A stretch of DNA of 37,518 nucleotides, from NCBI GenBank assembly GCA_025351005.1, contig JANXWS010000061.1, positions 1-37,518 on the forward strand, read 5' to 3'. Positions 8,790 to 37,328 of the stretch are shown here, piece by piece; the first letter of the stretch is position 1; every line of letters starts with the position of its first letter. This DNA is from Pseudomonadota bacterium (lineage in GTDB: Bacteria; Pseudomonadota; Gammaproteobacteria; Steroidobacterales; Steroidobacteraceae). The notes beneath the pieces are model-generated. The model was given only the letters and a program-made list of their open reading frames with translations. It was not told the DNA's origin and searched no databases. The translations under genes and the position numbers were made by a program.

Positions 8790-11249
8790 TCAGCCGTGCG
8801 TCACCTGCAGGATGCTGTGGCGGATCTGCTCGGACAGCACGAACTGCGCGTCGGCGGCGACGTCGAGCAGTGCCTGGTCGTACCCGAGGCAGCCGCCCGC
8901 GCCGACCTGGACGACGTCCCGTTCGCGCAGCAGGTCGAGGAAGCCCCTGAACAGAGTCTTGTCGAAGAACTGCGGCGAGCGCAGCTCGTAGAGCAGCGAC
9001 ATCCGGCTCGCCATCAGGTGGCAGCGGTTTTGCAGTGCGTCCTGGGTGATCGAGCCGGGGCCGGCCTTCAGCAGCAGCGCAATCGCCAGGTAGTAGCGCT
9101 CGATCACCTCGAGCGTCGCGTGCGCGAGCACCGACAGCTGCACCGCCTCGGTCGCGCCGGTGCGCGGCCGGCGCCAGACCGACCGGTCCGCGGAGCGCTC
9201 GAGGAGCCCCTGCTCGCCGAGCGTCTCCAGCAGTGCATCGACCACTGCCGGCACCTCCGCCTCCGACCAGCGCAGGAACAGTTCCTGCGCGATGTACGGG
9301 TAGATTCGCCAGGCGAGCCGCTGCACGTCCTCGCTGCGCAGGGCCGGGTTGTTCATGAACGCGCAGGCGATCAACGACGGCAGCGCGTACAGGTGCAGGA
9401 TGTTATTGCGGTAGTAGGCCGCGAGCACCGCGTTCTCCTCGCTCATCCGCACCACCGGGCCGAGTGCGTGCGACACCGTCTCGACCATGCCGAGGCTGTG
9501 GCCGTACTCGATGATGGCGGCGCCGTCGTGCGGCGTGCACCAGACGTCGGCTGCGTAGGGCGCGCGCGCGGCCAGACGCCGGTACAGGTCGAGCTGGCGC
9601 ACGAGGTCGGCCTCCGGCATCGCCTGGCGCGGCGTCGCGAGCAGCGCAAGCGCGAGCAGCGACACCGGCGAGATCGCCGCCGCCGAGTTGATCCGCGACT
9701 GGATCGCGAGCGCCAGCGAGTCGACGGCCCTCGGCAGCCACGCCGGCCGGCCGGCCGCCGCCGCCGCGCGCCATTCCGGCGCCTGACTATCGAGATGCTC
9801 CACGAGCGACAGCGGCTCGCCGAAACTGACGTAGACGCGGCCGAAGCGCCTGCGCAGCACGCCGAGGCCGCGCACGAGGCCGCGCACGCTCTCGCTCTGC
9901 TTGGGCGTGCCGGACAACTCGCCGATGTAGGTTTCGGCCTCGACCAGCCGTTCGTAGCCGAAGTAGACCGGCACGAACACGACCGGCCGCGTCGGGCCGG
10001 CGAGGAAGCTGCGCAGCGTCATCGCGAGCATGCCGGTCTTCGGCTGCAACAGCCGGCCGGTGCGGCTGCGACCGCCCTCGATGAAGTACTCGATCGGATG
10101 GCCGCGCTGCATCATGACGCTGACGTAGGTCGTGAACACGACCGGATAGAGAGCGTTGCCCCTGAAGCCGCGGCGCAGGAAGAACGCCCCGGCCTTGCGC
10201 AGGAAGCGGCCGATGACCGGCAGGTTCAGGTTGACGCCCGCGGCGATGTGGGGCACGGCAAAGCCGCGCGTGTAAATCACGTACGACAGCAGCAGGTAGT
10301 CCATGTGGCTGCGGTGACAGGGTACGTAGACGACCTGGGCGCCCTCCGAGGCGAGCTCGAGGCGCTCGGCGTGCAGCACCTCGACACCGTCGTAAAGCCG
10401 GTTCCAGACGCGCGTCAGCACGCCTTCCATTACCGCTACGAATCGCGGCGAGTAGTCGGCCGCTATCTCGAGCGCATAGCGGCGCGCCAGCTGCAACGCG
10501 TCGCGGCGGCTGAGGTGGCGGTCGCGCACCTCGGCCGCGACGGCCACGCGCACCGGGCGCTTGCGCAACACCTCGGCGATCACCGTGCGCCGGTGCGAAA
10601 GGTCGGGTCCGATGACTGCCGCGCGCGCGTTGCGGAACTCGAGGCGCATCGCCCGCGTCGCGCGGCGCGCCGGGCGTCGCGCGTCCTCGTCGCCGGGCGC
10701 CGTGAACGCACCGAGCGCCACCGGCTCGCCATAGCGCACGAGCGAGGCGCGCCCGTTGACGAACGTCGACAGCAGGCGGCGCACAGGGCCCACCAGCGTC
10801 CAGTCCTCGCTGAACAGCAGCCGGAACCAGGAGCGCTCCTTGGCTGGCGCGCGGCCCCAGAACACCGACACCGGCACGAAGTCGACGTCGCAGTCGTGCG
10901 CCGCGAGCGCCGCGGCGACCAGTCGCCGCAGGCGGCCCGGTACGCGCCGGTCGACGCGCGGGCGCAGCCAGCCGCGGTTGCGCTCGAGGAAAATCGTGGC
11001 GAGCGGCTCGCGGGCGGCGCCGAGCTGGAACCGTCGCGCCGGCGACGGCAGCCCGAGGCTGCGGCAGACGAGCGTGAGTGCCAGCAGGTCGGCGAGCGAG
11101 CGGTGCTCGAGCACGTAGAGCACCCGCCGGCCGCGACCGCGCAGCCCCTCGGCCTGCTCGAGCGGCAGCGCGGTGGGCCGCACCCACAGACTCGTCAGGC
11201 GACCGAGCAGCCACAGCAGGGTCCGGTCGAGCCCGAACAGGCCGGTCAC
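8790..11249 (-). CDS. plsB: Glycerol-3-phosphate 1-O-acyltransferase PlsB
   Basis: PlsB transfers an acyl chain from acyl-ACP or acyl-CoA to position 1 of glycerol 3-phosphate, the first step of phospholipid synthesis, at the inner membrane. The 819-residue length equals the gammaproteobacterial enzyme (E. coli 807). The acyltransferase blocks are in order: CHRSHMDYLLLSY with H312-x4-D317, RRGFRGNALYP (359-369), EGGRSRTGRLLQPKTGML (391-408) and VVFVPVYFGYE. The N-terminal 300 and C-terminal 300 residues are the helical regions expected for PlsB. The start is GTG at 11247-11249, overlapping the stop of the upstream GIY-YIG gene (GTGA), so the two are coupled. Confidence 0.95.
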   Translation of the reverse strand: MTGLFGLDRTLLWLLGRLTSLWVRPTALPLEQAEGLRGRGRRVLYVLEHRSLADLLALTLVCRSLGLPSPARRFQLGAAREPLATIFLERNRGWLRPRVDRRVPGRLRRLVAAALAAHDCDVDFVPVSVFWGRAPAKERSWFRLLFSEDWTLVGPVRRLLSTFVNGRASLVRYGEPVALGAFTAPGDEDARRPARRATRAMRLEFRNARAAVIGPDLSHRRTVIAEVLRKRPVRVAVAAEVRDRHLSRRDALQLARRYALEIAADYSPRFVAVMEGVLTRVWNRLYDGVEVLHAERLELASEGAQVVYVPCHRSHMDYLLLSYVIYTRGFAVPHIAAGVNLNLPVIGRFLRKAGAFFLRRGFRGNALYPVVFTTYVSVMMQRGHPIEYFIEGGRSRTGRLLQPKTGMLAMTLRSFLAGPTRPVVFVPVYFGYERLVEAETYIGELSGTPKQSESVRGLVRGLGVLRRRFGRVYVSFGEPLSLVEHLDSQAPEWRAAAAAGRPAWLPRAVDSLALAIQSRINSAAAISPVSLLALALLATPRQAMPEADLVRQLDLYRRLAARAPYAADVWCTPHDGAAIIEYGHSLGMVETVSHALGPVVRMSEENAVLAAYYRNNILHLYALPSLIACAFMNNPALRSEDVQRLAWRIYPYIAQELFLRWSEAEVPAVVDALLETLGEQGLLERSADRSVWRRPRTGATEAVQLSVLAHATLEVIERYYLAIALLLKAGPGSITQDALQNRCHLMASRMSLLYELRSPQFFDKTLFRGFLDLLRERDVVQVGAGGCLGYDQALLDVAADAQFVLSEQIRHSILQVTHG

Positions 11250-11774: not shown

Positions 11775-12287
11775 TTAGCCGCCGAAACGGTCCAGTGTCA
11801 CCAGGAAATACTCGAACTGGCAGCAGATGTCGCGGATGCAGTCCTGCAGCCGATGGTCGCTGTCGAGCAGGTGCAGCGTCGCGCGGTGCTCGCGCGCGAA
11901 GCGCACGCTGCCGTCGACCGGCACGACCTCGTCGCGCCAGCCGTGCACGATCGTGATCGGGCAGTCCGGCGGCTGCGGCGTCTGGTCCTCGTAGCCCGGC
12001 ATGTAGAACGCAGGCGCCATCAGGAACAGGCCCGCCGCGCGCAACAGGCGCGAGCCCGCGGTGGCCACGTACCCGCCCATGCTCGAGCCGACCAGCACCA
12101 TGCGGCCCTGCAGCTCGCGGCAATAACCGAGCAGGCGCGTCACCCGCTCGTTCGGGTCGTCGATGCCGCGGTAGTCGACCGACTCCGGCTGCCAGCCCTC
12201 GGCGCGCGCGATCTCGGCGAGCGCCGTTATCTTGGCGCCCCACGGGCCGGACTCCTTGCCGTGCGAGAAGACAACGTATCGAGTCAC
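11775..12287 (-). CDS. YqiA-like alpha/beta-hydrolase (putative esterase)
   Basis: A 170-residue compact alpha/beta-hydrolase. The nucleophile elbow is VGSSMGGYVA with Ser 69, the acid is Asp 119 in HGWRDEVVP, and the base is His 145 in LDSDHRLQD, so the triad is complete. An early FSHGKESGPWG (7-17) forms the oxyanion region. The size and missing lid fit YqiA/UPF0227 esterases, which act on short acyl esters. The start is GTG at 12285-12287, with GAGG 9 nt upstream; no ATG fits. Natural substrate is unknown. The small lipoprotein gene follows after 26 nt on the same strand. Confidence 0.82.
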   Translation of the reverse strand: MTRYVVFSHGKESGPWGAKITALAEIARAEGWQPESVDYRGIDDPNERVTRLLGYCRELQGRMVLVGSSMGGYVATAGSRLLRAAGLFLMAPAFYMPGYEDQTPQPPDCPITIVHGWRDEVVPVDGSVRFAREHRATLHLLDSDHRLQDCIRDICCQFEYFLVTLDRFGG

Positions 12288-14579: not shown

Positions 14580-18184
<3,605 letters not shown>

Positions 18185-18188
<4 letters not shown>

Positions 18189-19807
18189 CGCTGCAGGTGC
18201 TCGTGCAGCACGGTCGCCACGTCGAAGTCCGGATCAAACGGCGGTCGGCCGCCGGCCGACTGCAGCCGGTTGAGACTGACCGGCTGCACGCGGCTGCCGC
18301 GCGCCCCGTGGCTGACGAGCCAGCAGTGCCAGTCGCCTTCCCGGGACGCCGCGAAGCCGAACAACAGGTTGACGTCGCGCTGCTCGGGCCTCGGGTTGAC
18401 ACGATGGTCGCAGATCGAGAACCAGGGCTGCGTGCCGGGGCGGGTCGGAAAGGCCTCGTCGCGCGCCAGTGACTCCAGGAACTGTGCCACCTGCTGCTCG
18501 GCGCGGAACCACACGACCGCGCCCGGCTGCTCGAACAACACCCAGCGCGTGCCGCGGGCGATGCTGTCGGTTACCAGGAGCGCGATGCGCTTCAGTCCGA
18601 GGTAGCGCCAGTCGGCGCTCGGCGTGTGCGGTCCCGCAAGCGTTCGCGCAGTCAGCAGGCGCCGGCCGCGAACCGCCTGCAGCGTATTGACGCCTGCGTC
18701 CGCGAGCCGCGCCCGCCACTCGTCGGCGACCACGCAGGCCGGCCGGAGTCCCGGCCGCAGCGGCCCGTCCTCGGGCTCGGCCGGCGACCAAAACGGCCGC
18801 TCGGCCCCGAGCCGCGCCAGCATTCCCGTGGCCGCCGGTCCGGGCGCGAACGACTCGAAGCGTCCTCGCAGCCGGTCATAGGCCTGGATCCACGGGAAGT
18901 ACATGACCGCGTTGTCGCTCGCGAACTCGAAGCGGCGCAGGCCCTGCAGGGCAATCGCCGGCGAGCTCCAGTCGGACGGCGGGTCGACGACCAGCAGTGC
19001 GCGTCGCTCGCGACACAGCCGCGCCGCGACCAGCAGCGTGCTCGCGCCGATCGAGTGGTCGCGCGACAGCGGCGGTATGCACAGGAAGTTGAAGGCGTCG
19101 CCCTCGCCGAGCGCGAACAGCCCGGTGCGTTCGCTGGCCGAGCCGATGATGTCGTAGTCGGTCAGTGGACCGCCGTCGTCGGCGTCGGGGTTCGAGCTGA
19201 CGTAGGCGGCGAGCGTCCGGCCGTCGCCGCGGTGGGTCGGCAACGGCCGGTCCAGCGGCAACGAGCCGCGCGTTCGCACCAACGCCGAGTCGGCGAGCAG
19301 CACCGCGACGTGCCGCGCCGAGTCCGGGTCGACGGACAGGCGCGCATAAATCTCCTGGTCCTCGACGTGCTCGGAGCCGGGCGCCCGGACACGCTGGATC
19401 ACGAGGTTAAACTTGTCGCCGTCGCCGCGCGCGAGGTTGTCATAGTCGACCGCGGCACGCAGGAACTCGCGTGTTCCGGGACAGAGCGCCTCGACGGTCA
19501 GCGCGCCGTGCGAGGCCTGCAGCGTCAGCGTCGCCGGTCGGGCGCCGTTGACGACCCGCACCACCCGCGCGACGCGGCCGCCGTTCTCGAAGTACTGCTC
19601 GATGGCGTAAGAGAGCGTGCTCGGCTGCCACAGGCCGCCGAACACCGACTGGAAGTCGACGAAGCTAGTGACCGTGACGGCGTGGTTGACCGGGCCGCGC
19701 AGCGCCCGGCCGATGAAGGCGACGGTGGCGGTGTCGACGCGCGCAATCGCCTGCCCAGCGCCGACTTCTTCAGCAACGTGAATGCCGGGTACCAGTCCTT
19801 CTCGCAA
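18185..19807 (-). CDS. Contractile-tail sheath protein, orphan
   Basis: A complete 540-residue homologue of phage/contractile-injection sheath proteins. The N-terminus has the typical handshake strand and domain start LVPGIHVAEEVGAG, then TATVAFIGRALRGPVNHAVT and SFVDFQSVFGG, SYAIEQYFENGG and RVVRVV. The C-terminal sheath domain is clear: YLGLKRIALLVTDSI, RGTRWVLFEQPGAVVWFRAE, QVAQFLESLARDEAF, and a final NLLFGFAASREGDWH. In known systems this protein forms the contracting outer tube around the Hcp/tube protein. No tube, baseplate, spike, AAA+ or lysis gene is present in the window. The start is TTG at 19805-19807 with GAGGGG 8 nt upstream. It lies downstream of a glycosyltransferase and a 54-residue gene on the same strand. 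It has no frameshift, so it is probably kept for a function. Confidence 0.85.
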
Positions 19808-19889: not shown

Positions 19890-20054
19890 TCAGGTGCCCT
19901 TCGGCCGCGGCGTGCGCGCCACTGCGCCGGGCCCGGGCGTGACCGCGGCGTGCAGCCGCGCCGCGTCGCCTGCGGCGGCCGCGCGCGCCGCGGCGGCCTC
20001 GCGGCGCTTGCGCGCGACTTCCTCGAGCATCACTCGGAGCCACTCGGTAGGCAC
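19890..20054 (-). CDS. Small basic helical protein of unknown function
   Basis: A 54-residue reading frame starts with GTG at 20052-20054, preceded by GAGGGAGA 4-5 nt upstream, a good ribosome-binding site. The product begins PTEWLRVMLEEVARKRREAA, an amphipathic charged helix, continues Ala/Arg-rich and ends with a Pro/Gly/Arg tail. Its start overlaps the last 25 bases of the glycosyltransferase gene, and the sheath gene starts 82 nt after its stop, so the three may be one transcript. I do not recognise the family. The ribosome-binding site and the packing support it; its short length and Ala-rich composition argue for caution. Confidence 0.55.
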   Translation of the reverse strand: MPTEWLRVMLEEVARKRREAAAARAAAAGDAARLHAAVTPGPGAVARTPRPKGT

Positions 20055-21256
20055 GTCGTCTCCCTCGCCACGGCGGTCGCCGCCCGACTATAGCGCGGCC
20101 GGACCGCCCGGCTGACGAGCTCCGCGTAGAGCGCCGCCAGCCGTTCCGCCATCGCCGGCGCCGACCAGGACGCCGCGTCGGCAGGCCCGGCGGCGGCGAG
20201 CTCGGCGCGCAGCCGCGGCTCCTGGAGGACGCGCGTCGTGACGGCGGCGAAGCCCTCGACCTCGTCCGGCGCGATGAGCGCGCCGCGCACGCCGCGCAGC
20301 ACGTCTGCAGTGCCCATGATCGCCGTCGAGACGACCGGCACGCCGAGCGCGAGCGCCTCGAGCAGCACCAGGCCCTGCGTTTCGGTGCGCGAGGCGAACA
20401 CGAACGCGTCGCCGGCCCGGTAGCAGTCGAGCAGCGTCGTGCCGCGATCGAGGTAGGCGACGAACAGCACGTTCTGCTGCAGGCCGAGCCGGCCGGCGAG
20501 CCGGCGCAGGTGCCCGAGCGCGGGGCCCTCTCCGGCGACGACCAGCAGCACGTCGGGGATGTGGCGGCGCACGAGCGAAACTGCCGCGAGCACGAAGTCG
20601 ATGTTCTTCTCATGGGCGACGCGCGAGATGTGCAGCAGCAGCGGCCGCGCGCGGTCGATGCCGTAGCGCGCGCGGAACGCCGGGCCGTCACCGCCGCGGA
20701 AGCGGCCCAGGTCCAGCCCGGTCGGTAGCACCTCGGTGCGCGCCGTGACGCCATAGCTCTGCAGCCGGGCGAGCATCTGCGAAGACGGAACGATCAGCGC
20801 ATCGACCGCCCGGCACTGCGTGACGCTCATGCGCCGCGCCAGCAGTCGCGTCAGCGCCCGCGGCAGCAGCGGCACGTAGTGGTACAGGTATTCCTCGAAA
20901 AACGTGTGGTAGGTTTCGACCACGGGCAGGCCGAGCTGCTCGCCGAGCGCGACGCCGGCGTAGTGGGCGACGAACGGTGTGTGGATGTGGACCAGGTCGT
21001 AGCCCTGCGTCTTGAGCCCTGGCGCGAGCGCGACGATCCGGCGCCGGCTCATCATCCGGTCCTCGGGGTCACGCGGCACCGCGAACGACGGCATGCGGAT
21101 GACGTCCGGCTCTTCGGGCGAGGCCGCCGGATAGGCCGGGGCGATCAGCGTCGTCTGGTGGCCCTGCTCGAGGAGACTCTGACGGAACGTCGCGATCGAC
21201 GTCGATACACCGTTGACCCGCGGGAAGCTGACGTCGGACACCATCAATATGCGCAA
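20030..21256 (-). CDS. GT4-family glycosyltransferase (GT-B fold)
   Basis: The 408-residue enzyme has both Rossmann domains of a GT-B glycosyltransferase. The N-terminal domain starts MRILMVSDVSFPRVNGVSTS, with VHIHTPFVAHYAGV and VVETYHTFFEEYLYHY, typical of GT4 enzymes making glycolipids or mannosides. The donor-binding domain has LLLHISRVAHEKNIDFVLAA, VVAGEGPA and the EX7E motif in SRTETQGLVLLEALALGVPVV (split here at about residues 315-335). Relatives transfer glucose or mannose to diacylglycerol or phosphatidyl-inositol-type acceptors, but acceptor and donor are not readable. The ATG at 21254-21256 gives the family's usual N-terminus. It leads a run of three minus-strand genes ending with the sheath gene. 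Confidence 0.88.
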   Translation of the reverse strand: MRILMVSDVSFPRVNGVSTSIATFRQSLLEQGHQTTLIAPAYPAASPEEPDVIRMPSFAVPRDPEDRMMSRRRIVALAPGLKTQGYDLVHIHTPFVAHYAGVALGEQLGLPVVETYHTFFEEYLYHYVPLLPRALTRLLARRMSVTQCRAVDALIVPSSQMLARLQSYGVTARTEVLPTGLDLGRFRGGDGPAFRARYGIDRARPLLLHISRVAHEKNIDFVLAAVSLVRRHIPDVLLVVAGEGPALGHLRRLAGRLGLQQNVLFVAYLDRGTTLLDCYRAGDAFVFASRTETQGLVLLEALALGVPVVSTAIMGTADVLRGVRGALIAPDEVEGFAAVTTRVLQEPRLRAELAAAGPADAASWSAPAMAERLAALYAELVSRAVRPRYSRAATAVARETTCLPSGSE

Positions 21257-21379: not shown

Positions 21380-21871
21380 ATGCCCACTCCGGACCCAATC
21401 GAGGCGCTGCGCGCCCGCGCCCAGACGATCCCGCTCGATGCCCCCGCGCGCCGGCGGATCGAGGAGCGTCTCAACGGCCTCGCCTCGATGCGGCTGATGG
21501 GCGCGCGGCTCGACCTCGGCGATCCGGACGTCGTGCGGATCGGGCTCGCCGAAGTGGCCGAGCATCATCTCGGCGGCCTCGGCACGGGTGCGGTCAACGG
21601 CGCCGTGATCGCGGGCCTGTTCGACGTGGCTCTAGGCGTCGCCGGCACGCTGCAGTTCGGCGGCCAGCGCGCCGGCACGGCTGAGTTGTCGGTCAAGCTG
21701 ATGCGGCCCGCCTTCGAGCCACCGCTCGAGGTGCTCGCGATCACGGTCAAGCACTCGCCGCACCTCGCCTTCACGGCCGCCGAGCTGTACTCGGACCGGC
21801 GCCTGTGCGCGATCGCGACCGGCATCGTTGCGCTCGCCACCAGCCAGCAGGACGGTGATTCCTACTGGTAG
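21380..21871 (+). CDS. PaaI-like hotdog-fold thioesterase
   Basis: A 163-residue hotdog-fold protein. The helix-strand core reads EHHLGGLGTGAVNGAVIAGL, then FDVALGVAGTLQFGGQ with the Asp usual in PaaI-type thioesterases, followed by AELSVKLMRPA and AFTAAELYSDRRLCAIATG, the standard strands 3-5. Members hydrolyse acyl-CoA thioesters; the substrate is not evident. GAGGA lies 6 nt before the ATG at 21380, which fixes the start. The last 10 bases overlap the end of the convergent L,D-transpeptidase gene. A TATCAT at 21351-21356 could be its -10 box but has no clear -35. Confidence 0.83.
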   Translation: MPTPDPIEALRARAQTIPLDAPARRRIEERLNGLASMRLMGARLDLGDPDVVRIGLAEVAEHHLGGLGTGAVNGAVIAGLFDVALGVAGTLQFGGQRAGTAELSVKLMRPAFEPPLEVLAITVKHSPHLAFTAAELYSDRRLCAIATGIVALATSQQDGDSYW

Positions 21872-23115
21872 CCGCGCGCGGACGGTGCCGGGGGCGGCTG
21901 CGCCGGGCCAGCGGCCGGCGGCGGCGCCTCGCGCGCGCCCAGCATCTCCGCGAACTGCTTCTCGTCGACCAGCAGGCCGGACTGACCGTCCCACGTGGCG
22001 CCCTCCGGCAGCTCGTCGCGAACCCGGCGTGCGGATGCGACAACGGCCGCGGCGCTATCCCGGTCGCCGCGCATCACAGACACCGGGATGCCGCGCGACG
22101 CCTCGGCGAGCGCGCGGGCGCGCTCCCAGTCGATCTCCGCATCGTGGCTCGAAATCCGTTGCCATAGCGGCGTTCGGCCCGATTTTCGCAGCAGCGACGT
22201 CGGTCCGTGCTGCCACGCACGCCGGTCGTCCTCGAGCGGGCCGTAGGCCTGCACCAGCAACGTGTCGCCGTGCCAGCCAAGCAGGTACGGCTGGTTGACG
22301 ACCCGCACCGGCGTGCCGAGCGGCACGATCTGGTAGAGGATCGCGATGTCCTCCGGGTAGAGCCGCACGCAGCCGTGGCTCGAGCGCATGCCGACGCCGT
22401 AGGCCTTGTTTGTGCCGTGGATCAGGTAGCTCGGCCAGCCGAGACGGAACATGTAGGCGCCGAGCGGGTTGTCGGGCCCGGCCGGCACCGTCGGCGGCAG
22501 GTCGTCGCCGTCGTCGTGGTGCTCCTTGCGCACCGAGCGCGGCGGCACCCACACCGGATCCTTGACCCGCGCGACGATGCGGGTCACGCCTTCGGGCGTC
22601 TGCCAGCCGATCTTGCCGATGCCGATCGGATGCGTGATGACGACCAAGGGCTCGCCCTTGGCGCGCTTCGGGTAGTAGAAGAGCCGCATCGCGGCGACGT
22701 TGATGACGACGCCCTCGCGCGGCGCGTCCGGCAGCACGAAATGCGTCGGCACCACGATCTCGCGGCCGGCGCCAGGCAGCCATGGGTCGATGCCGGGGTT
22801 GGCGCGGACCATCTCCTCGTAGCCGACGTTGAAGCGCCGCGCGATGTCCGGAAACGTGTCGTCGGCGCCTGCGACCGTGACCTGCAGCTCGCCGACGACG
22901 TCCTCGCCCGAGGCGTCGATGGTGAAGCGGTGCATGGCGACGGCACGCTCGAGCACCGGCGCCGGTGGCGCCGGCGGCTTGGCGGCCACCACGGGCGGCG
23001 GTGGCGGCCGGGACCGGAGCAGTGAGCAGCCAGCGAGCGCGATCGTCGCCAGCAGCGCCGCGACGCCGATCCCGGTGCTACAGCAGCGTCGGCCGGTCGG
23101 GGAGCTCATTGCCAT
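21862..23115 (-). CDS. L,D-transpeptidase (YkuD), lipoprotein
   Basis: The 417-residue protein is a peptidoglycan L,D-transpeptidase. A lipobox (ALAGC, Cys 30) follows the signal peptide, then a Pro-rich linker, a LysM-like segment (TFPDIARRFNVGYEEMVRAN, 87-106) and the YkuD catalytic domain with SYLIHGTNKAYGVGMRSS and SHGCVRLYPED (catalytic Cys 249, His 247 beside it). A further 150-residue extension follows the domain. Such enzymes make 3-3 cross-links or attach proteins to murein in the periplasm. Two ATGs are possible (23113-23115 or 23107-23109), both overlapping the end of the upstream TPM gene by about 30-38 bases, so it is probably translated by coupling and is the fourth gene of the lemA cluster. 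Confidence 0.9.
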   Translation of the reverse strand: MAMSSPTGRRCCSTGIGVAALLATIALAGCSLLRSRPPPPPVVAAKPPAPPAPVLERAVAMHRFTIDASGEDVVGELQVTVAGADDTFPDIARRFNVGYEEMVRANPGIDPWLPGAGREIVVPTHFVLPDAPREGVVINVAAMRLFYYPKRAKGEPLVVITHPIGIGKIGWQTPEGVTRIVARVKDPVWVPPRSVRKEHHDDGDDLPPTVPAGPDNPLGAYMFRLGWPSYLIHGTNKAYGVGMRSSHGCVRLYPEDIAILYQIVPLGTPVRVVNQPYLLGWHGDTLLVQAYGPLEDDRRAWQHGPTSLLRKSGRTPLWQRISSHDAEIDWERARALAEASRGIPVSVMRGDRDSAAAVVASARRVRDELPEGATWDGQSGLLVDEKQFAEMLGAREAPPPAAGPAQPPPAPSARGYQ

Positions 23116-23578
23116 CGCGACCGGAGCCCGGGAAATGTCGGCTCAGCAGCCGTGCCGCGGCCTCGACGCCGGCCAGCGCGCCGTGCTCCCAGCGACCTTG
23201 TCGGAATTCGAGCTGCATCGCCCGCGACACCTCGGCCCATTCGGTCGCCGTGACGAGGCCGTTGAAGCCGCGATCGGCGACGATCTCGACGGCGCGGTCG
23301 GCGAACAGCACATAGATGAGGACGCCGTTGTTCTGCTCCGTGTCCCACACGTGCAGACCGGCGAACACCTCGAGGGCGCGCTGCCGGGGCGTCTTGCCGG
23401 CCGCGATCGACCAGACGTCGAGGTCGGTCTCGACGACGAGCCGCAATTCGCCCTGGTGTCCCTGCTCGGCGCGCGCAACCGCCGCCTCGACGTGGTCGAG
23501 CACGGTGCTCGTGAACCGGCGCCGCGTCGCGAGCCGCGTCTCGAACAGGTGCCGGAGGATGCGCAGGACGCGGGTCAT
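23078..23578 (-). CDS. Soluble TPM-domain protein
   Basis: A 166-residue protein of the TPM (TLP18.3/Psb32/MOLO-1) family without signal peptide. Recognisable elements: AAVARAEQGHQGELRLVVET (about 32-51), RALEVFAGLHVWDTEQNNGVLIYV (67-90, the core strand with NNGVLIYV), FADRAVEIVADRGF and a C-terminal helix (VSRAMQLEFRQG). It is the short partner of the membrane TPM protein that starts 3 nt upstream, an arrangement common beside lemA. No catalytic role is proven; plant members assist photosystem repair and some have phosphatase activity. The ATG at 23576-23578 is clear. Confidence 0.83.
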   Translation of the reverse strand: MTRVLRILRHLFETRLATRRRFTSTVLDHVEAAVARAEQGHQGELRLVVETDLDVWSIAAGKTPRQRALEVFAGLHVWDTEQNNGVLIYVLFADRAVEIVADRGFNGLVTATEWAEVSRAMQLEFRQGRWEHGALAGVEAAARLLSRHFPGSGRDGNELPDRPTLL

Positions 23579-23581
23579 CGT

Positions 23582-24457
23582 TCACCAGCTCCCAGACGCG
23601 CCGCCGCCGCTGAAGCCGCCGCCGCCGCCGCTGAAGCCACCGCCGCCGAAGCCGCCACCGCCGAAGCCGCCACCGCCGAAGCCGCCAAAACCGCCACGGC
23701 CGTTGGTCCAGCCACCGCCGCCGAGGCCGCCGAGCAGTGTCAGCACGAATCCGGCGATCGCGGCCAGCACCGCGAAGCTCGCGACGCCGAGCAGCGCGAA
23801 GATGAGCCCGCCGGCGATGCCGCCGGTCGCCAGCGCGCCGACCGGGCGGCCGAGCAGGCGACGCAGCACCGGCCCCGCGACCAGGCCGAGCAGCAGCAGC
23901 ACCGGCAGCGCGCCCTGGAAGCCGGGTGCGCCGCGGCGCGTCGCGTGCGCGGGCACCGGTGGCAGGGCCTCGCCGTCGACGAGCGCGATCAGCCGGTCGA
24001 CGGCGCGATCGATGCCACCGTAGAAATCACCGGCGCGGAAGCTGGGCCGCAGGTACTCGTCGAGCACGCGGTTTGCGGCGAGGTCGGTGACGGCACCCTC
24101 GAGCCCCCGGCCGACCTCGATCCGCATGCGACGGTCATCCTTGGCGATGATCACGATCAGGCCGTCGTCGACGCTCTTGCGGCCGAGCTTCCACTGATCG
24201 ACGACGCGGATACTGTAGCCGGCGATGTCGTCGGGCGCGGTCGAAGGCACGATCAGCACCGCGATCTGGCTGCCCTTGCGCGCCTCGAACGCGGCGAGCT
24301 TTCGGTCGAGCGCCGACTGCTGCTCGGCCGACAGCGTCCCGGTCAGGTCGCTGACCCTGGCCACCGGCGGCACGGCGACCTCAGCCCGCGCCGCCGGCAG
24401 CGCGAGGGCTGCCCCCAGCAGCACGGCGGCGGCGCGAAGCGGCACGGCGGACGCCAC
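23582..24457 (-). CDS. Secreted/membrane TPM-domain protein (YgcG type) with Gly-rich tail
   Basis: A 291-residue protein with a signal peptide (to about residue 25, PAARA-EV), a TPM domain (about 30-160: VSDLTGTLSAEQQSALDRKL; QIAVLIVPST; DDGLIVIIAKDDRRMRIEVG; LEGAVTDLAANRVLDEYLRP), hydrophobic segments around 185-200 and 213-245, and a Gly/Phe/Ser-rich tail of about 45 residues. This is the YgcG architecture: an extracytoplasmic TPM domain held by transmembrane helices with a low-complexity tail. The start is GTG at 24455-24457, giving the signal peptide. It lies 17 nt after lemA and 3 nt before the second TPM gene. Confidence 0.85.
   Translation of the reverse strand: MASAVPLRAAAVLLGAALALPAARAEVAVPPVARVSDLTGTLSAEQQSALDRKLAAFEARKGSQIAVLIVPSTAPDDIAGYSIRVVDQWKLGRKSVDDGLIVIIAKDDRRMRIEVGRGLEGAVTDLAANRVLDEYLRPSFRAGDFYGGIDRAVDRLIALVDGEALPPVPAHATRRGAPGFQGALPVLLLLGLVAGPVLRRLLGRPVGALATGGIAGGLIFALLGVASFAVLAAIAGFVLTLLGGLGGGGWTNGRGGFGGFGGGGFGGGGFGGGGFSGGGGGFSGGGASGSW
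23648..23692 (-). repeat. 15-bp tandem repeat coding the Gly-Phe tail of the TPM protein
   Basis: The unit GAAGCCGCCACCGCC (plus strand) begins at 23648, 23663 and 23678, the last copy diverging to CCAAAACC. On the coding strand it gives the repeat GGGGF. Slippage could change copy number between strains. Confidence 0.65.
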
Positions 24458-24474
24458 GTTGCCGGGTCGCGTGT

Positions 24475-25092
24475 TCAGGTACCCGGCTTGGCAGCCGGCG
24501 CCGCGGTAAAGTCCACCGGCGGCGGCTTCGAGATCTGAGCTTCGTTCTCGACGCTGAAGTTCGGCTTGACCTTGTAGCCGAACATCATCGCCGTCAGGTT
24601 GACCGGGAACTGACGGACGTTGACGTTGTACTGCTGCACGGCCTGGATGTAGCGGTTGCGGGCCACCGTGATCCGGTTCTCCGTGCCCTCGAGCTGGGCC
24701 TGCAGGTCGCGGAAGTTCTGGTCGGACTTGAGCTCCGGATATCTCTCGACGACCACCATCAGTCGCGACAGCGCGCCCGACAGCTCGCCCTGCGCCTGCT
24801 GGAACTGCTTCAGCGACTCCGGGTTACCGGCGTCGACCTTGACCGAGGTCGCCTTGGCGCGCGCTTCGGTGACGCCGATCAGGACCTGCTGCTCCTGCTG
24901 CGCGAAACCCTTCACGGTGTTGACCAGGTTCGGGATCAGGTCGGCACGCCGCTGGTACTGGTTCAGCACCTCCGACCAACCGGACTTCGTCTGTTCATCG
25001 AGGTTCTGGATGCTGTTGTAGCCACAGCCCGACAACAGGGCACCGGCCGCCAGCACCGCGACTAGCCACGAGGTACGCAGGATCGATCGCAT
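24475..25092 (-). CDS. lemA: LemA family lipoprotein
   Basis: The 205-residue protein is a canonical LemA: lipoprotein signal with LLSGC (Cys 23), then GYNSIQNLDEQTKSGWSEVLNQ, YQRRADLIPNLVNTVKGFA, a long helix with Lys/Glu-rich segments, RLMVVVERYPELKSDQNF, LQGTEN-type LEGTENRITVARNRY, and QYNVNVRQFPVNLTAMMFGY at the end. LemA proteins are helical-bundle envelope proteins without a known enzymatic function. GGAGG lies 4-5 nt upstream of the ATG (25090-25092). It is the first gene of a lemA - TPM - TPM - L,D-transpeptidase run and has its own promoter-like box within the end of the upstream methyltransferase gene. Confidence 0.93.
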   Translation of the reverse strand: MRSILRTSWLVAVLAAGALLSGCGYNSIQNLDEQTKSGWSEVLNQYQRRADLIPNLVNTVKGFAQQEQQVLIGVTEARAKATSVKVDAGNPESLKQFQQAQGELSGALSRLMVVVERYPELKSDQNFRDLQAQLEGTENRITVARNRYIQAVQQYNVNVRQFPVNLTAMMFGYKVKPNFSVENEAQISKPPPVDFTAAPAAKPGT

Positions 25093-35246: not shown

Positions 35247-37328
35247 TCAGTCCCACAGCGCCCGCAGACGTGCCCCCACGTCGACGCGGCTGGCGGGCCC
35301 CGCGACGGCTGCCTCGCTCGCGGCCGCAGCGGTCGCGGCGATCGGCTCGAGCGTCGCGCGCACGCGCTCGCCGAGGAAGCGGCTGGCCGCGCCGTAGACG
35401 TGCGCATCGCCGAAGCGCGGCTGCTGGGTCACGTAGTAGCGCAGCGGCGTCACCAGGTGCAGCGCATCGCGGGCCCGGGTGATGGCGACGTAAAGCAGCC
35501 GCCGCTCCTCCTCGAGCAACTCGGGCGAGCCCGCCGCGAACTCCGACGGAAAGTTGCCGTCGTTGACGTTGAGCAGGTACACCGACTGCCACTCCTGGCC
35601 CTTGGCAGAGTGCACCGTCGACAACACCAGATAATCCTCGTCCAGCAGCGGGCTGCCGGCCAGGTCGCCGCTCGCCCGCGGCGGGTCGAGCGCGAGCTCG
35701 GTCAGGAACCGCTCGCGGGTCGCATAGCCGCCAGCAATGCGCACCAGCTGCTCGATGTCGCCGGCCCGCACGGTGGCGGCGTCGTAGCTGCGCTCGAGGT
35801 GCGGCCGATACCAGTCGCGGACGCGCTCGACCTGTCCGGGCCACGGCGCGGACGCGAGCGCGCCGTAGAGGTCGACGAGCGAGGGCCAATCCGCGCGTGC
35901 CGCGGCCGGCGCCGCGAACGCAGCGAGTCCGGCGCGCAACCCGCCTTCAGCCGCGAGTGCGGCCAGGCAGCGGTCGCTGTGCGCGGGCCCCATGCCCGGC
36001 AGCAGCTGCAGCACTCGAAACGCGGCGATGCGGTTCCGCGGGTTCTCGGCCCAGCGCAGCACCGCGAGCAGGTCCTTGACGTGCGCCGCCTCGAGGAACT
36101 TGAGGCCGCCGTACTTCACGTAAGGGATGTTGCGGCGGACCAGCTCGACCTCGAGGAAGTCGCTGTGGTGGCTCGAGCGGAACAGTACGGCCTGGCGCCG
36201 CAGCAGCACGCCCGCCTCGCGGGCCGCGAGCACCTCGGCGATCACGTAGTCGGCCTGGCCCCGATCATCCTCGACGCTGACGAGCCGCGGGCGGGCGCCG
36301 CTGCCGCGGCACGCGCGCAGCGCCTTCGGGTATTGGCACGCGGCGTCCAGCATCAGCGCATTGGCCGTGTCCAGGATCGGCTGCGTCGAGCGATAGTTGT
36401 CGAGCAGCGTGATGACGGTGCCCCGTGGCGCGAACTGCTCCGGGAACGCCAGGATGTTGTCGACCGTGGCCGCCCGGAACGAGTAGATCGACTGGGCGTC
36501 GTCGCCGACCACCGTGAGTCCTGCGCCGGCCGGCTTCAGCGCGCGCAGGATCTCCGCCTGCAGGCGGTTGGTGTCCTGGTATTCGTCGACCAGCACGTGG
36601 TCGAAGAGCGCGCCGATCCGGTCGGCGAGCGATGGCTCGGCGACCAGGCCGTGCCAGTACAGCAGCAGGTCGTCGTAGTCGAGCAGGTGCTCCGACTGCT
36701 TGCGCAGGACGTAGGCGCGGTACAGCCGGTTCAGGTCCGGCTCGAACTCGGCACACCACGGCCAGTGCTCCGCCAATGTCGCGGCCAGCGGCCGCTGCGT
36801 GTTGACGCGGTGCGAGTAGATCGCGAGGCAGGTGTCCTTGCGCGGAAAGCGCTTGTCGCGCGCCGACAGTCCGAGTTCGTGGCGCACGACGTCGAGCAGG
36901 TCGGCGCTGTCGCCGCGGTCGAGCACGCTGAACGCCGGGTCGAGCCCGACCTGCTGCGCGTGCATCCGGAGCAGCCGATTGCCGACCGAGTGGAAGGTGC
37001 CGGCCCACGGCAGCCGCACCGGCTGCGGCCGCGGGCGCGCAGCCGCCGCCGCCGCCGCGCCGAGACGTGCGGCGACGATGCGCTCGGCGCGCCTCGTCAT
37101 CTCCTCTGCGGCGCGGCGCGTGAACGTCAGCAGCAGGATCCGCGCCGGATCGACGCCCTGCAGCACGATGTGCGCGACCCGGTGCGCGAGCGTGTGGGTC
37201 TTGCCGGTGCCGGCGCCGGCGATGACCAGCAGCGGCCCCGCGGCAAAGCCGCGGGCCGCGACGGGCTTGCCGAAGGTGACGGCGGCGCGCTGCTCGGAAT
37301 TCAGCGCTTCGAGCGGGTCGGCGGACAT
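35247..37328 (-). CDS. UvrD/Rep-family ATP-dependent DNA helicase
   Basis: A 693-residue SF1A helicase moving 3'-5' on DNA. Motifs are in order: Q motif LNSEQRAAV (9-17), Walker A AGAGTGKTHT (37-46), Ia LLTFTRRAAEEM, Walker B VDEYQDTN, III GDDAQSIYSFRAA, IV DNYRSTQPI, V STVHSAKGQEW, and VI LLYVAITRARD. All catalytic residues are present. The length is near Rep/UvrD (670-720), but the C-terminal Tudor-like part of UvrD is absent and the N-terminal motif Ia-Ib insert is Ala-rich, so it is better called UvrD/Rep-like than UvrD. Role is in repair or restarting replication. The ATG is 37326-37328; a GATAAT box ending 7 nt upstream suggests a leaderless mRNA. Confidence 0.92.
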   Translation of the reverse strand: MSADPLEALNSEQRAAVTFGKPVAARGFAAGPLLVIAGAGTGKTHTLAHRVAHIVLQGVDPARILLLTFTRRAAEEMTRRAERIVAARLGAAAAAAARPRPQPVRLPWAGTFHSVGNRLLRMHAQQVGLDPAFSVLDRGDSADLLDVVRHELGLSARDKRFPRKDTCLAIYSHRVNTQRPLAATLAEHWPWCAEFEPDLNRLYRAYVLRKQSEHLLDYDDLLLYWHGLVAEPSLADRIGALFDHVLVDEYQDTNRLQAEILRALKPAGAGLTVVGDDAQSIYSFRAATVDNILAFPEQFAPRGTVITLLDNYRSTQPILDTANALMLDAACQYPKALRACRGSGARPRLVSVEDDRGQADYVIAEVLAAREAGVLLRRQAVLFRSSHHSDFLEVELVRRNIPYVKYGGLKFLEAAHVKDLLAVLRWAENPRNRIAAFRVLQLLPGMGPAHSDRCLAALAAEGGLRAGLAAFAAPAAARADWPSLVDLYGALASAPWPGQVERVRDWYRPHLERSYDAATVRAGDIEQLVRIAGGYATRERFLTELALDPPRASGDLAGSPLLDEDYLVLSTVHSAKGQEWQSVYLLNVNDGNFPSEFAAGSPELLEEERRLLYVAITRARDALHLVTPLRYYVTQQPRFGDAHVYGAASRFLGERVRATLEPIAATAAAASEAAVAGPASRVDVGARLRALWD

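Follow-up and report, generated by a model that had tools for sequence, protein, structure and literature searches.

A contractile-sheath protein without its machine: a conserved, probably domesticated gene of the Steroidobacteraceae

A contractile-sheath gene that stands alone is carried by 186 of 217 genomes of the Steroidobacteraceae, in 25 of 25 genera (family-wide search). Its product has the sheath fold, is widely distributed at a syntenic locus that lacks a tube gene, remains under purifying selection and shows an inverted pattern of constraint along its length. We interpret it as the sheath of a contractile injection system (CIS) that was domesticated, lost its tube and partners, was inherited vertically at one place and changed its function, and we give this whole explanation a probability of about 0.7. 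Domestication with a changed function, taken by itself, is likely. Probably one part of a machine has turned into a near-universal protein of the family, and of much of the order, with a function other than injection, and the surface that does the work has shifted from the core facing the tube to the middle domain. A domesticated sheath with another role was among the readings offered by the first-pass annotation of this DNA, and it is the one that distribution, synteny, tube absence and inverted constraint support.

The window, that is, the whole stretch of DNA analysed, is the complete contig C38 (37,518 bases) of a 2.71 Mb MAG that is 85.8% complete. The features used below are as follows, with counts referring to 63 solitary loci that were compared, some of them short contigs.

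8790..11249, minus strand: glycerol-3-phosphate acyltransferase (PlsB-like), a syntenic marker on the downstream side, present on the same strand in 32 of 63 loci.
11775..12287, minus strand: alpha/beta-hydrolase-like gene, a syntenic marker on the downstream side, present on the same strand in 38 of 63 loci.
14580..18188, plus strand: hydantoinase/oxoprolinase, convergent with the sheath gene and overlapping it by 4 bases (25 of 63 loci, on the opposite strand every time).
18185..19807, minus strand: solitary sheath-derived protein of 540 amino acids with a TTG start (profile, fold, distribution, tree, constraint).
19890..20054, minus strand: small helical protein of 54 amino acids with the motif EWLxVMLEEIxRKR, the next gene upstream of the sheath (relatives and model).
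20030..21256, minus strand: GT4-family glycosyltransferase, with its 3' end running 25 bases into the small ORF (19 of 63 loci).
21862..23109, minus strand: L,D-transpeptidase (YkuD) (53 of 63 loci; same strand and upstream in 53 of 53).
23078..25092, minus strand: TPM, TPM and LemA genes, in the same syntenic block as the sheath (HMMs).

The sheath ORF is intact, and a GAGGGG sequence was read by eye 8 nt 5' of its TTG start. Residues 6-453 matched the tail-sheath profile PHROG_23 at 8.2e-32. In a sequence search of the PDB, the Streptomyces CIS sheath 8bky was the best match (2.9e-30), Pvc2 was found at 9.3e-11, and the matches at E <=0.1 were CIS, eCIS and phage sheaths. Neither Pfam nor NCBIfam recognised the window protein as a sheath. 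When the alignment A1 of 18 proteins was searched, PF04984 matched five of them and PF17482 four, with a best value of 2.1e-06, and among five more distant solitary sheaths one (L091) was above a Pfam cut-off, that of PF17482. The AlphaFold2 model, built with 18 sequences, had a pLDDT of 75.7 and a pTM of 0.70. Foldseek placed a Halogeometricum sheath first (2.4e-26), followed by the T4, Streptomyces CIS, P1 and pyocin sheaths; all of the 50 PDB structure matches listed were sheaths or tail/CIS assemblies, with TM-scores of 0.41-0.57 by query length, and phage sheaths from a viral structure library matched the model as well. By profile match and fold, the protein belongs to the contractile tail-sheath superfamily, and its earlier description as a full-length, frame-intact sheath homologue holds. 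A promoter/terminator scan and an Rfam search around the locus gave nothing useful.

The other parts of a contractile machine were missing. The first-pass annotation had reported no tube, baseplate, AAA+ or lysis gene within 18 kb of the sheath. A Pfam scan of the 33 products of the window revealed, apart from the sheath, no gene for a tail, baseplate or lysis function and no further phage gene; the sole AAA-type match was a UvrD-like helicase (35247-37328). Because the window is a whole contig, the statement on "within 18 kb" reaches only as far as the contig does. The rest of the genome was also searched, and neither a tube of the PF06841, PF04985 or CIS type (HMM) nor a gp25-type gene (PF04965) was detected. 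No second sheath was found there by protein search, on which this result rests because PF04984 fails to recognise the window sheath itself. A prophage or tailocin was rejected on the gene content of the window and on a search with the sheath against 50,697 phage records, which gave no match. Membership in a complete CIS was rejected because the tube, gp25 and other CIS genes (clusters c42, c20 and c35) and the C-terminal arm motif are all missing at the window sheath.

This absence extends to the relatives. We searched 98 genomes, the window's own included. PF06841 found a tube in seven of them (G033, G044, G045, G056, G065 and G067, with a partial match in G081), PF04985 in none, and the gp25-type gene was present in 13, nine of them sheath-bearing, a count that lumps T6SS, phage and eCIS together. 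Because PF06841 missed all of 14 control genomes, the tube search was repeated on 80 genomes with an HMM (A2) made from a CIS-tube alignment, which detected both positive controls (G404 and G173) at 1e-104 or better. It matched 4 of the 78 sheath-bearing genomes (G033, G044, G056 and G065) and none of the other 74; among the 59 high-quality sheath-bearing genomes, three matched. Clusters c42, c20 and c35 were found beside the sheath in 0 of 63 solitary loci, some of which are short contigs.

The first-pass annotation had also considered that the sheath might complement tail genes located elsewhere. Three of the four tube-positive genomes (G033, G044 and G065) do have eCIS loci on other contigs and G056 has a lone tube-like gene, but each of those eCIS loci comes with sheaths of its own (L102, L103 and L105), and even with the partial PF06841 match in G081 a tube is missing from nearly all genomes that carry the solitary gene. 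Complementation of this kind is thus very improbable.

The eCIS loci in the order are sporadic multi-gene loci (L102, L103, L104 and L105, in G033, G044, G067 and G065, respectively), each with two tubes and two sheaths. The tube-like gene of G056, a 6.3 Mb genome, lies at L111:10835-11317 with no adjoining sheath, and the solitary sheath is elsewhere in that genome.

Among the 98 genomes, many of which are fragmented drafts, 80 matched the sheath. Within the window's family the figure was 57 of 60 searched genomes (the misses were G012, G026 and G045), and in the family-wide search 101 of 114 high-quality genomes carried the gene. Elsewhere in the order, 23 of 38 genomes matched and 21 of the 38 had the solitary type, in nine further families; the matches in G067 (eCIS) and G074 (weak) were of other types. 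The solitary sheath was therefore carried by 10 of 16 sampled families of the order, with none found in the sampled genomes of families f6, f9, f12, f13, f14 and f16. Two sheath matches occurred in 10 of the 186 positive family genomes; of the five such genomes in which they were located, four had fragments on two contigs and one had two pieces of one frame. The in-match stop of the G079:C3 sheath is where an intact frame of 516 residues naturally ends, that of the G088 sheath is taken to be a natural end too, judged from its 531-residue open frame, and among the family-wide matches listed that of G570 contains one in-match stop.

The gene can be lost. At least 14 genomes of genus g13 lack it (G026, G045 and G590-G601) and two have it (G606 and G609); among the 20 unmatched family genomes listed, of 31 in all, 12 belong to this genus. 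The g13 losses show that the sheath is dispensable, which counts against the explanation preferred below, and they could be dated and compared within a single genus.

A remnant kept intact was another reading put forward earlier. A decaying relic of a prophage or injection system, whole here by chance, would account for the lack of any other tail gene on the contig or in the genome, but it does not fit a gene that 186 of 217 family genomes carry, with regional median dN/dS values of 0.21-0.32 among close relatives and, within genus, a rate of change about that of its neighbours. On these grounds it was ruled out, its probability being close to nil.

Neighbouring genes were located in stretches fetched from the relatives, and calls of presence or absence rest on six-frame HMM searches. 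Wherever they were found among the 63 loci, the L,D-transpeptidase, hydrolase, PlsB and glycosyltransferase genes shared the strand of the sheath, and so did LemA (33 loci) and the two TPM genes (35 each). Two sheath-less genomes of the family, G026 and G045, retain LemA-TPM-TPM-transpeptidase on one side and hydrolase-PlsB on the other, and no sheath or small ORF was detected between the transpeptidase and the hydrolase; about 15 bases separate these two matches in G026, and about 0.7 kb is left in G045. The place is therefore fixed and the gene can be lost from it. Since the whole block is syntenic and the transpeptidase is retained where the sheath is missing, the neighbourhood is weak evidence of a shared function, and the block synteny points to vertical inheritance more than to such a function. 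Within genus, the identity and dN/dS of the sheath follow those of the transpeptidase and TPM genes; beyond genus, it is somewhat less conserved than the transpeptidase in most loci (for instance, 39% against 48% identity in L091). This comparison covered 17 loci.

The small ORF was found in 36 of the 98 genomes, all of them sheath-bearing (36 of 78), and in all 36 it lay on the same contig as the sheath, at most about 1.2 kb upstream. Families f2 and f7 have it as well, with other genes between it and the sheath. Its model is one helix (residues 3-38), and it matched nothing in Pfam, PHROG, NCBIfam or PADLOC. The earlier proposal of a three-gene unit of sheath, small ORF and glycosyltransferase is partly borne out: the small ORF accompanies the sheath in under half of the sheath-bearing genomes, two other families included, and the glycosyltransferase is present in under a third of the loci; the L,D-transpeptidase is the more widespread upstream neighbour.

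In a class-wide sample of 369 genomes, 37 matched the sheath, five of them within the order. We inspected nine of the best among the 32 relatives outside the order: a tube gene followed the sheath in 9 of 9, and other CIS genes were also present in eight, the ninth locus (L145) being a 3.5 kb contig. The tube gene follows the sheath likewise in Ensifer, Novosphingobium and Streptomyces plasmid loci. A quick maximum-likelihood tree of 84 rows, drawn with an arbitrary midpoint root for display only, placed 60 solitary sheaths on one branch (SH-aLRT 97), and 12 tube-linked CIS rows together with the orphan sheath L095 on a separate one (SH-aLRT 99). Two f5 rows and L110 fell outside both branches. 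On this phylogeny the simplest reading is that one domestication event would lie behind the 60-row branch.

The cytoplasmic CIS sheath of Streptomyces coelicolor (8bky, 8bl4, 9gtp and 9gts), the gammaproteobacterial CIS sheaths (L142-L150) and that of Ensifer (L058) are among the closest relatives of the window protein by sequence and are similar to it in length. The sheaths of L058, L060 and L142-L150 adjoin a tube and three other CIS genes (the short contig L145 excepted), none of which accompanies the window sheath, and they keep the canonical arms. The Halogeometricum borinquense sheath 9ezm, the best Foldseek match (TM-score 0.53 by query length) and second-best PDB sequence match, was solved in a contracted state, whereas no contraction is known for the window protein. 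The eCIS sheaths (Pvc2, Afp2 and those of the G033, G044, G065 and G067 loci) belong to the same superfamily, but differ from the solitary sheath in occupying a distinct part of the tree and in being encoded in multi-gene loci, where two tubes and two sheaths occur together.

The sheath of L095 (8688-10208), from G079 of the same order, is a second sheath in that genome. It has canonical CIS arms and groups with the tube-linked sheaths, with no tube nearby, nor in the genome by HMM A2. We take it for an independent orphan, perhaps a younger one.

A comparison of constraint separated the solitary sheaths from those of machines. A common alignment held 60 solitary and 11 CIS-type rows (10 tube-linked rows and the orphan L095), and 185 of its positions were at least 90% conserved among the latter. 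These positions numbered 19 in the stretch 1-39, 53 in 40-319 and 113 from 320 onward (position numbers there run +4 relative to the protein numbering), and fewer than 20% of solitary rows had kept the CIS residue at 9, 3 and 46 of them, respectively. Conversely, at 28 positions the solitary rows were conserved to 80% or more and a different residue was the commonest in the CIS rows; 22 of these positions lay within 75-270. Mean pairwise identity was then compared over four regions (N-arm 1-28, 29-110, 111-320 and 321-500). It was 0.26, 0.63, 0.55 and 0.42 in 42 solitary rows of the family (overall 0.50), and 0.67, 0.44, 0.34 and 0.72 in nine non-redundant CIS-type rows including L095 (overall about 0.53-0.54), a small comparison set; without L095, the eight tube-linked rows gave 0.69, 0.44, 0.34 and 0.74 (overall 0.54). 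Constraint is thus inverted: tube-linked sheaths conserve the N-arm and C-half most, and solitary ones the middle domain. Because the overall identities are alike (0.53 or 0.54 against 0.50), divergence does not account for these opposite trends. The delta for the middle exceeded that for the C-half in 200 of 200 subsamples both with and without L095; Mann-Whitney p values of about 5e-31 and 9e-32 serve as a guide only, as the columns are non-independent. Eight eCIS sheaths showed the usual pattern (middle 0.22, C-half 0.41).

Median dN/dS over the same regions was 0.21, 0.23, 0.27 and 0.32 among solitary sheaths paired within genus (20 or 21 of 21 pairs usable) and 0.02, 0.17, 0.22 and 0.08 among CIS sheaths, for which only 7-10 of 21 pairs were usable; dS approaches saturation where pairs are distant. 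The single close CIS pair (L143 and L144) gave 0.00, 0.06, 0.05 and 0.04, with no contrast from middle to C-half. Purifying selection thus remains over all regions of the solitary sheath. Several positions were near-invariant in the 60 solitary rows (Q151 in 60, R139 and D219 in 59 each, D123 in 58 and E114 in 57); at the position of R139, the 11 CIS-type rows had D in nine, E in one and a gap in one. We infer from the strand register of the model that E114, R139 and E149 would sit next to one another on three adjacent strands.

In working sheaths, contact with the tube and assembly of the tail are ascribed to a core made up of N- and C-terminal portions (PMC9230969), and in the Streptomyces sheath insertions after G25, in the N-terminal linker, are reported to block contraction (PMC10066040). 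The C-terminal arm motif, which was defined from the CIS rows themselves, was present in 12 of 12 CIS, 7 of 8 eCIS and 0 of 61 solitary rows. The N-terminal arm motif was found in 12 of 12 CIS rows, 2 of 61 solitary rows and only 2 of 8 eCIS rows; the N-arm of the window protein is near-canonical. Beyond the position of H500, the solitary sheaths carry an extra C-terminal tail after the last arm strand, with a median of 38.5 residues against 7 in CIS-type rows.

These changes bear on the strongest rival, in which a tubeless sheath still polymerises into tubules or rings in the cytoplasm and serves as a filament or scaffold, with no injection. The myophage sheath protein FV3 gp053 can likewise exist without a tube: sheath proteins are described as self-assembling without other viral proteins, and gp053 as still assembling polysheaths after removal of up to 25 N-terminal and 100 C-terminal residues (PMC6357053). 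The overall sheath fold is kept in the solitary protein, too. However, constraint fell in the N-arm and C-half, which belong to the core held responsible for contacting the tube and assembling the tail, and the extra C-terminal tail also speaks against such assembly. The gp053 polysheaths are recombinant phage proteins; the window sheath is a conserved chromosomal single gene. We consider polymerisation of this kind unlikely, at roughly one chance in four by our reckoning.

The same pattern weighs on the idea of a decoy, whereby the protein would co-polymerise with the sheaths of incoming tailocins, injection systems or contractile phages and so poison their assembly. A kept sheath-like fold, the lack of a CIS-type tube in 74 of 78 genomes and the dispensability of the gene would suit an immunity function of this sort, but constraint is low where a fit to other sheaths would be needed, the place is fixed and syntenic, and no PADLOC model matched the sheath or the three genes upstream of it. 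An immunity role is improbable.

Domestication of a CIS sheath with a change of function is the reading that we prefer. A CIS sheath gene would have been domesticated, most simply once, in an ancestor of much of the order; the tube and other CIS partners would have been lost, and the gene would then have passed on vertically at one chromosomal place. The solitary sheath presumably no longer coats and fires a tube. Its old core may have been retained as a scaffold, and the region around residues 30-320, with its new invariant polar positions, may bind a partner or ligand, for which the small helical protein would be the likeliest candidate where it is present. As a guess, and one that we hold tentatively at somewhat below even odds, the protein could be a cytoplasmic scaffold or adaptor linked to the envelope. 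An envelope-linked role is our best guess because LemA, TPM and L,D-transpeptidase genes adjoin the sheath and by analogy with the CIS of Streptomyces, whose firing is reported to require a membrane protein (PMC12237407).

The case resembles the domestication of entire phage tails into secretion systems such as the T6SS in that the host took over phage-tail parts; those systems, as described in PMC8987985, kept the whole machine, and the solitary sheath is one part alone. Studies of contractile systems usually deal with the whole machine; here, a family and much of its order have retained a single part. A literature search, which covered papers outside subscription, found no account of a solitary sheath. 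Such orphan sheaths may have gone unseen because of this focus on whole machines and because at least one large survey of contractile systems discards loci without tube or baseplate genes (PMC12210884). The family offers a natural experiment in which the sheath surfaces needed for contraction can be told from the roles of a sheath without contraction.

Relatives of the sheath were also found on three viral contigs in IMG/VR, at 36-37% identity. On two of these contigs (L182 and L184) a CIS-type sheath is followed by a tube gene, and near them lies what looks by eye like a Zot-like gene of filamentous phages.
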